Shown here: positions 10,101-34,195 of the stretch, piece after piece
Position numbering within the stretch: position 1 is the first letter of the stretch
Layout: every line of letters starts with the position of its first letter
Source of the DNA: Glandiceps talaboti
Taxonomy: Eukaryota; Hemichordata; Enteropneusta; Spengelidae
Direction of reading: 5' to 3'
Length of the DNA: 64,000 nt
Assembly (NCBI RefSeq): GCF_964340395.1
Contig: NC_135555.1
Coordinates: forward strand, 7,769,431 to 7,833,430
Made by a program: the position numbers and the translations under genes
Notes under the pieces: model-generated
Told to the model about the DNA's origin: nothing
Databases searched by the model: none
What the model saw: the letters and a program-made list of their open reading frames with translations, nothing else

Positions 10101-13100
10101 TCCCGTGTCACTAGTATGATGCAACAATGTCTACACGTAGAACCATTGGATTCCCATGTCACTAGTATGGGGCAGCAATGTCTACACGTAGAACCATTGG
10201 ATTCTTACGTCACTAGTATGATGCAACAATGTCTACACATAGAACCATTGGATTCCCATGTCACTAGTATGATGCAACAATGTCTACACATAGAACCATT
10301 GGATTCTCGTGTCACTAGTATGGGGCAGCAATGTCTACATGTAGAACCATTGGATTCCCATGTCACTAGTATGGTGCAACAATGTCTACACATAGAACCA
10401 TTGGATTCCCATGTCACTAGTATGGTGCAACAATGTCTACACATAGAACCATTGGATTCCCATGTCACTAGTATGGTGCAACAATGTCTACACATAGAAC
10501 CATTGGATTCCCATGTCACTAGTATGGTGCAGCAATGTCTACATGTAGAACCATTTGATTCCCATGTCACTAGTATGGTGCAACAATGTCTACACGTAGA
10601 ACCATAGGATTCCCACATCCCCAGTATGTTGCAACAATGTCTACACGTAGAACCATAGGATTCCCACATCCCCAGTATATGTTGCAACAATGTCTACACG
10701 TAGAACCATAGGATTCCCACATCCCCAGTATGTTGCAACAATGTCTAGAACCATAGGATTCCCATGTCACTAGTATGATGCAACAATGTCTACACGTAGA
10801 ACCATAGGATTCCCACATCCCCAGTATGATGCAACAATGTCTACGCATAGAACCATAGGATTCCCACATCCCCAGTATGATGCAACAATGTCTACGCATA
10901 GAACCATAGGATTCCCATGTCACTAGTATGATGCTACAATATCCACATGTAGAACCATTGGATTCCCGTGTCACTAGTATGATGCAACAATGTCTACATG
11001 TAGAACCATTGGATTCCCATGTCACTAGCATGATGCAACAATGTCTACATGTAGAACCATTGGATTCCCGTGTCACTGGTATGATGCAACAATGTCTACA
11101 TGTAGAACCATTGGATTCCCATGTCACTAGTATGATGCTACAATGTCCACATGTAGAACCATTGGATTCCCGTGTCACTAGTATGATGCAACAATGTCTA
11201 CACGTAGAACCATTGGATTCCCATGTCACTAGTATGGGGCAGCAATGTCTACATGTAGAACCATCGGATTCCCATGTCACTAGTATGGTGCAACAATATC
11301 CACATGTAGAACCATTGGATTCCCGTGTCACTAGCATGATGCAACAATGTCTACATGTAGAACCATTGGATTCCCGTGTCACTGGTATGATGCTACAATG
11401 TCCACATGTAGAACCATTGGATTCCCGTGTCACTAGTATGATGCAACAATGTCTACATGTAGAACCACTGGATTCCCGTGTCACTAGTATGATGCAACAA
11501 TGTCTACATGTAGAACCATTGGATTCCCATGTCACTAGTATGATGCTACAATGTCCACATGTAGAACCATTGGATTCCCACGTCACTAGTATGATGCAAC
11601 AATGTCTACCCGTAGAACCATAGGATTCCCATGTCACTAGTATGGTGCAACAATGTCTACACGTAGAACCATTGGATTCCCACATCCCCAGTATGATGCA
11701 ACAATGTCTACACATAGAACCATTGGATTCCCGTGTCACTAGCATGGTGCAGCAATGTCTACATGTAGAACCATTTGATTCCCATGTCACTAGTATGGTG
11801 AAGCAATGTCTACATGTAGAACCATTGGATTCCCACGTCATTAGTATGATGCAACAATGTCTACACATAGAACCATTGGATTCCCATGTCACTAGTAGTG
11901 ATATGGTGCAATGATGTCTTCACAAGAATGATCTGCATATTAAAGAACCAATGAATTCCCACATCTGCAGGATGATGCAGTGATGTCTGTGCAAGAACCA
12001 ATGGATTCCCTTGTTGACACAAAAACCAATGGATTCCTAGGTCACCAGTGTGATGCAGCAACATCAGTGGAGAACTTGTGAATTCTCACATCCCCAGTAT
12101 GATGCAGCAATGTTGGCACAAGAACCAATGGATTCCCACATCACCAGGATGATGCAGCAATATCTATACAAGAACCAATGGATCCCATATCATATATATC
12201 ACCAGGATGATACAACAATGTCTACACAAGAAAAATGGATTCCCACATCCCCATGATGATGCAGTGATGTATACACAAGAACTGATGGAATCCAATGTTA
12301 CCAGTATGGTGCAGCATGTTTGAACAATAACTAATGGTTTATTCCCACAGCCCCAGGATGATGCAGTTATGTCTACACAAGAACTGATTGAATCCAATGT
12401 TATCAGTATGGTGCAGCAATTTGAACAATAACTAATGGTTTATTCCCACAGCCCAAGGATGATGCAGTTATGTCTACACAAGAACCAATGCATTCCTACA
12501 TCCACATAGTATATGGCGCAGCTTTGTGTACAAATGAGCCAATGGATTTCCGAGTCAACAGTATGACCCAGCAATGTCAACAACTGCTCAGATGGATTCC
12601 TATGTCAACACTAAATTGTATGATGCAGCAATATCTGCACAACACAAGAACCAATGGATTCTGTGTCAATGGTATGATGCAGGTGCACTGTCAACACAAG
12701 AACCCATAGATTCCCATATCATGAGGATAATGCAGGAATATGTACACATGAACCAATGGATTTTCATGTCATCAATATGATGTAGGGGTGATGTCTACAC
12801 AAGGTCAATGGATTCCTGTGTTGCATTTATAATGCAGCAATCGGTTGATTTTCATAAGATACCACTGATGTTAGCAGTTGTTAACACCAGTGGTATTTTA
12901 TTCATTAAAAATACCCTCATTTCATAGTATACACATTTACAATATAATGTATGTTTATGATATAAAAATAAAAAGTGACTAAAATATACAAAATCTATCA
13001 TGCATTTGGACTTCAAAAAAAATTTCTCTCTACAGGAAACAGTACGTATGCAATTATATTTACAAGCGATAACCTTATAGAAGGTGACTTCAAACTTCGA

Positions 13101-34195: not shown

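Follow-up and report, generated by a model that had tools for sequence, protein, structure and literature searches.

Intact motor residues in a tandem pair of permuted GREB1-type helicase exons joined to a TAGT glycosyltransferase domain in the hemichordate Glandiceps talaboti

Does an animal genome hold circularly permuted superfamily 2 (SF2) helicases of the GREB1 type whose motor residues are intact? The question is raised by two neighbouring giant exons of the hemichordate Glandiceps talaboti, which a preliminary description, prepared from the sequence alone, took to encode a duplicated module of this kind. The stretch analysed, referred to here as the window, comprises 64,000 nucleotides (C8:7769431-7833430) of a 590 Mb genome whose contigs are labelled C1, C8, C10, C15 and so on. 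The helicase module of GREB1 is presented in a passage of the review PMC6163654 as presumably nucleic-acid-binding and catalytically inactive, with Iyer et al. 2013 cited there for the permuted module. The analysis below indicates that both window exons encode the permuted core with its catalytic residues in place, followed by a glycosyltransferase domain.

Permuted helicase core of the tandem giant exons

Frame listing revealed two open frames on the + strand of the window, at 12972-18362 (1796 aa) and 26524-32730 (2068 aa). Splice-like signals, comprising acceptors that end at 13035 and 26623 and donors that start at 18349 and 32723, sit exactly on the exon limits proposed earlier (13036-18348 and 26624-32722). 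Pfam searches matched both exons to the family cpSF2-GREB1 (PF20692), with E values of 3.6e-83 for copy 1 and 1.4e-82 for copy 2 (280.9 and 279 bits against a curated cut-off of 26.2). The features of the two cores are as follows.

13036..18348, + strand: copy 1 giant exon (protein P0001), with N region, cpSF2, TAGT and C region; acceptor ...CTCTCTACAG, donor GTAATG
13662..16376, + strand: cpSF2-GREB1 domain (PF20692) of copy 1, by Pfam
13785..13817, + strand: motif Ia, copy 1
14007..14018, + strand: motif II (DEAH), copy 1; ResIII profile E 9e-4, under the ResIII cut-off
14103..14114, + strand: motif III (TATP), copy 1
15759..15860, + strand: Cys/His cluster, zinc-ribbon-like, immediately preceding motif V, copy 1, with invariant C..C.C..C..C.H.H columns
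15921..15947, + strand: motif V, copy 1
16020..16046, + strand: motif VI, copy 1
16311..16340, + strand: motif I (Walker A) at the C-terminal end of the cpSF2 domain, copy 1
26624..32722, + strand: copy 2 giant exon (protein P0002), with the copy 1 layout plus an acidic and repetitive tail; acceptor ...ATTTTTCAG, donor GTATGT
27259..30027, + strand: cpSF2-GREB1 domain (PF20692) of copy 2, by Pfam
27385..27417, + strand: motif Ia, copy 2
27607..27618, + strand: motif II (DEAH), copy 2
27709..27720, + strand: motif III (TATP), copy 2
29398..29499, + strand: zinc-ribbon-like cluster, copy 2
29560..29586, + strand: motif V, copy 2
29656..29682, + strand: motif VI, copy 2
29950..29979, + strand: motif I (Walker A), copy 2

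Translation at these coordinates bore out the motif order given in the preliminary description for both exons, i.e. Ia (TAR..LQ.QT), II, III, V and VI (QELGRLCRY), with motif I following motif VI inside one and the same cpSF2 domain. The catalytic residues of motifs I, II, III and VI are seen in both copies, GKT, DEAH and GR..R being all present as claimed. When the P-loop segments were scanned alone, they fitted cpSF2 model positions 603-701 (E 1.6e-15) and 606-710 (E 4.4e-15) of 716; since the Walker A element thus fits the C-terminal end of the model, the succession Ia, II, III, V, VI, I is characteristic of the family itself rather than peculiar to this locus. The back-translated GKTGT pattern occurs only at 16326 and 29965, and was encountered in none of 100 shuffles. 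Nor was the best match a non-permuted helicase with a separate P-loop domain behind it, because a single cpSF2 model spans both ends. The permuted order is consequently real, but its recognition is not a new inference, as the arrangement already bears the Pfam name cpSF2-GREB1.

Some 800 residues of copy 1 span only 431 positions of the Pfam model, which indicates a core with large inserts. Between motifs III and V, at about residues 460-585 of P0001, a repeated strand-like pattern can be discerned that by eye resembles a beta-trefoil.

Relatives elsewhere in the genome and the GREB1 gene proper

A profile search of the genome recovered PF20692 at five loci (17 matches scored) and the TAGT family PF20691 at the identical five (6 matches); these counts are lower bounds for repeats, and short PF20692-related pieces in a multi-copy repeat come in addition. 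Four of the loci are of the giant-exon type, namely the two window copies, one on C17 with a frame of 1707 codons and one at C8:18.29 Mb (C8b), where frames of 1336 and 751 codons are separated by a frame break. The duplication proposed for this invertebrate is accordingly genuine, although it extends to four giant-exon copies and not two. The permuted motif order recurs at C17, C8b and the fifth locus, on C15. The break in C8b falls just after the Walker A helix (L010:5647-5777), the two frames overlapping by 131 bases, and error, polymorphism and early decay cannot be told apart as its cause. Searches of viral and genome contig collections with two short peptide patterns yielded no further relatives.

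Conservation among the giant-exon copies is concentrated on the motor. Over the cpSF2 domain, identity to copy 1 is 48% for copy 2, 35% for C17 and 32% for C8b, yet 42 of the 50 columns in six motifs, as picked by the analyst, are invariant in the four sequences, as against 159/753 (21%) of all ungapped columns (hypergeometric 5e-23). GKT, DE.H, ATP and Q..GR..R are identical throughout, so that the residue set of active SF2 ATPases (AxxxxGKT, DExH, S/TATP, QxxGRxxR) is complete in all four; C17 and C8b have DECH and SATP in place of DEAH and TATP, both being common SF2 variants. Motifs Ia and V are invariant at 7/11 and 9/9 columns, respectively, and the zinc-ribbon-like cluster before motif V is common to the four copies. 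Each of the four proteins contains exactly one generic P-loop ([AG]x4GK[ST]), which is the Walker A segment. Comparison of copies 1 and 2 revealed that 243 of 436 identical residues in the domain are encoded by different codons with the frames still open, and that third positions in the domain differ more often (569) than the other two (386 and 266). Synonymous divergence is saturated, the NG86 estimate (dS) being undefined for the domain, and no ratio of non-synonymous to synonymous divergence (dN/dS) can be given.

The C15 locus presents a different picture. Its cpSF2 domain is spread over many exons, and both matches in the genome to the N-terminal GREB1 family GREB1_N (PF15782) lie on C15. 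Because this is the only locus with a detected GREB1_N, it is taken to be the GREB1 gene proper. GREB1_N was not found at any giant-exon locus in the genome profile search, which may overlook exons that are short or diverged; conversely, profiles of the window upstream stretch (described below) and N region had no match among 650 C15 frames at E 0.05. A profile built from the four giant-exon copies aligned with the C15 exons collinearly and in permuted order, with low scores of 4.8 to 18.5 bits, and exposed the following motor changes: TAR to TAP in motif Ia, DEAH to DQAH, TATP to TPTP, and QELGRLCRY to QEIGLVCQY in motif VI (GR..R to GL..Q), with GKTG kept. DQAH means that the catalytic glutamate is gone, and QEIGLVCQY that both motif VI arginines are gone. 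Judged by its sequence, the C15 GREB1 motor looks dead. The degenerate helicase that is regarded as typical of GREB1 proper is thus found in the C15 gene, but not in the window genes. Since the C15 gene retains the permuted order with dead residues, intactness is not automatic in the family. Human GREB1 is probably degenerate at the same positions.

The window genes share with vertebrate GREB1 and GREB1L the permuted SF2 core followed by TAGT (PF20692 and PF20691), but differ in their intact motor residues and in that GREB1_N was not found there. Relative to C15 GREB1, they additionally have the zinc-ribbon-like cluster, a part of the profile for which no C15 exon gave a collinear alignment, and carry the whole cpSF2-TAGT part in one exon. 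The suggestion that the window genes are GREB1 itself was therefore abandoned, given the separate multi-exon C15 gene with GREB1_N and a degenerate cpSF2. They would instead represent a second, motor-competent cpSF2-TAGT branch beside GREB1.

Glycosyltransferase part, proposed mechanism and alternatives

A TAGT glycosyltransferase domain lies C-terminal to cpSF2 in both window copies, scoring above the 27.5-bit cut-off in each, marginally so in copy 2.

16899..17315, + strand: TAGT glycosyltransferase (PF20691), copy 1, E 1.8e-13, 51.4 bits; DDN at 17187-17195
30547..30858, + strand: TAGT glycosyltransferase (PF20691), copy 2, E 3.1e-6, 27.7 bits; DDN at 30832-30840

DDN or DDH is present in the TAGT part of all four giant-exon copies, and WED..NNDCD in three, copy 2 having WYD and DNQCD. 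The C-terminal parts of three of the four also match the first half of the model for the phage beta-glucosyl-HMC-alpha-glucosyltransferase (phrog_842; E 2e-5 to 8e-4), a resemblance not seen in the C-terminal part of copy 2. The phage family consists of the transferase by itself (270 model positions), whereas TAGT in the window genes is joined to cpSF2. TAGT is placed in T-even phages in a portion of PMC13216743, and a statement within PMC10908778 has GREB1 O-GlcNAcylating oestrogen receptor alpha (ER-alpha). Candidate acceptors, by analogy, would be either DNA bases (the phage comparison) or protein (the GREB1/ER-alpha report). A TET/JBP oxygenase locus at C24:8089377-8096123 gave two matches, the only ones among the matches listed, and might supply a base glycosyltransferase with its substrates.

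The reading that we favour, and consider reasonably probable, is that the giant-exon genes encode an ATP-driven nucleic-acid motor fused to, and positioning, a glycosyltransferase. In such a protein the elements with which RecA domain 1 usually begins (strand, P-loop and helix) would come last in the chain; upon folding, GKT and DEAH would form one ATP site, completed from RecA domain 2 by the two arginines of QELGRLCR. Because residues for ATP binding and hydrolysis and the arginine fingers are present once the C-terminal end contributes its P-loop, we infer an active nucleic-acid-dependent ATPase. Hydrolysis would power movement or remodelling on nucleic acid, and the ATPase could present substrate to the adjoining C-terminal TAGT domain (GT-A type), which would move a sugar onto DNA bases or bound proteins. 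Hydrolysis, translocation and coupling to the glycosyltransferase are all predicted here from sequence.

The same intact ATPase residues could feasibly serve a core that binds and hydrolyses ATP as a nucleic-acid-gated switch or clamp, positioning the glycosyltransferase but neither moving along nucleic acid nor unwinding it. Processive helicase action is absent from many SF2 ATPases, and the large inserts in the core would also suit such a role; conservation of motifs Ia and V, which contact nucleic acid in SF2 proteins, speaks for more than a switch. We regard this alternative as possible, if on the unlikely side, and nothing in the present data separates it from a motor. A pseudo-helicase with merely residual motif identity, as in GREB1, seems very unlikely. 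The module is described as without catalytic activity in the review passage cited above (PMC6163654), and the C15 gene with GREB1_N has lost DEAH, TATP and GR..R, but four copies that diverge down to 32% identity retain the catalytic residues, and the invariance of the motif columns lies far above the 21% background. Pseudogenes, or collapsed or misassembled copies, are scarcely credible: the frame break of C8b could be so explained, but the two window copies and C17 are open over about 1700-2070 codons, and third positions account for the largest share of the differences between copies 1 and 2.

It might also be argued that a P-loop-less SF2 remnant has been joined to an unrelated P-loop domain, and the comparisons with canonical helicases bear on this point. 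ResIII matched the DExH-xATP stretch in short constructs of all four giant-exon copies (E 1.9e-5 to 0.008), above cut-off in copy 1 only, and more weakly in the full-length proteins. Escherichia coli RadD, a ResIII-type SF2 ATPase, aligned at the same IADExH...sATP stretch with an hhalign score of 39, the scores of four further helicases and of four controls being 14-22, although its P-loop comes first and that of the window genes last. In copy 1, placing the P-loop piece before the Ia-III piece lengthened the ResIII match, which then covered model positions 21-163, without raising the score (24.9 versus 25.1 bits); the other three copies showed no lengthening. Nor did any cut beside the P-loop improve a score in hhalign rotation scans, which were run against five helicases of E. 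coli and four controls. The rotation tests neither support nor refute permutation. Searches of Protein Data Bank (PDB) chains revealed no relative by sequence, and AlphaFold2 (AF2) models made from few input sequences were of low confidence (predicted local distance difference test, pLDDT, 32; 55 for a partial model lacking the P-loop). The absence of any gain on rotation and the poor models could be cited in favour of such a composite, but the curated cpSF2-GREB1 family is one model running from before motif Ia to past Walker A with both ends matched, the same order is found at five loci, and no second generic P-loop occurs in any of the four giant-exon proteins. We consider the composite hardly plausible.

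Surroundings, a related repeat and implications

Two further stretches upstream of the giant exons resemble one another and probably belong to the copy 1 and copy 2 genes, respectively.

788..1153, + strand: putative upstream coding stretch of copy 1, with a CVGC motif; blastp against 25671-25940, E 1.6e-9, 33% identity
25671..25940, + strand: putative upstream coding stretch of copy 2; blastp counterpart of 788..1153

Between the copy 1 upstream stretch and its giant exon lies a long minisatellite-like array in which several frames are open (window 9450-11919). The C-terminal tail of copy 2 (window 31837-32722) contains a poly-Glu/Asp run; at 32152 begins a tandem repeat of SDHKTSMKRPWSTPGKEED-like units that copy 1 lacks. 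Beside the tandem pair, on the - strand at window 43216-50459, a PARP regulatory domain and two WWE domains are encoded by exons that probably belong to one PARP-type gene.

A search with copy 1 returned short matches on C1, C10, C23, C31 and C39, all inside one repeat (loci L036, L038, L039, L040, L041 and L037, on C10, C23, C31, C39, C10 and C1, respectively). Among the copies on C10 (twice), C23, C31 and C39, in-register pieces of at least 4 kb have an identity of 99.2-99.9%; the comparison covered about 9 kb per copy, extended to about 21.7 kb in the case of one C10-C23 pair. That on C1 is older, its longest pieces, of 2.5 kb and 1 kb, being 94.4% and 92.7% identical, respectively. At all six loci the repeat holds a piece of 80-98 bases that is 95-96% identical to copy 1 (source window 14497-14594). 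Other pieces are 85-91% identical to the gene at C8:18.29 Mb, and one of these, around the DExH motif, stands in two to four tandem copies at five of the six loci. When nine neighbouring frames of the repeat were scanned, three exceeded the Pfam cut-off (RING, TNFR-like and kinase). The repeat appears to have spread recently, extends over about 21 kb or more, and is possibly a large virus-like element.

Contig C40 is mitochondrial, with cox1 present three times at a spacing of 15,435 bases. ATA falls in cox1 on conserved isoleucines, and no AAA codon occurs in the frames putatively assigned to nad1, nad2, nad4, cox2 and cox3; the long nad5 and cox1 frames, which extend past the real starts, contain 2-3. 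Portions of PMC3121625 and PMC2697986 give ATA as isoleucine as a mark of Ambulacraria and the absence of AAA as a mark of Balanoglossus. By its mitochondrial codon usage the animal is thus most likely an enteropneust hemichordate and, as such, a deuterostome.

The cpSF2-TAGT architecture is already known and named, and what is new to us is the occurrence of a decayed-motor GREB1 beside four intact-motor relatives in one genome. No report of motor-intact GREB1 relatives was found among the matches listed in the GREB1, permuted-helicase and TAGT literature; Iyer et al. 2013 may already mention intact invertebrate versions. If the C15 gene and vertebrate GREB1 have their decay in common, the dead-motor and live-motor branches would have separated before the deuterostome ancestor. 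A bolder proposal, which we offer as speculation and think improbable, is that a functional glycosyltransferase, driven by ATP and tracking along nucleic acid, persists in an animal lineage as the ancestral form, of which GREB1 would be the disarmed remnant. Such a machine might defend the genome, with intruding DNA or the chromatin on it as the target of marking or silencing, and the multi-copy, possibly viral element would be its counterpart in an arms race.

GREB1 is a cancer-linked steroid-receptor cofactor, and the presence of dead and intact motors in one genome allows the role of the ancestral machine to be asked about, in particular whether ATP once drove the glycosyltransferase along nucleic acid, and what remained in GREB1 after loss of the motor. 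The giant-exon genes provide an expressible subject for the study of a permuted SF2 ATPase.
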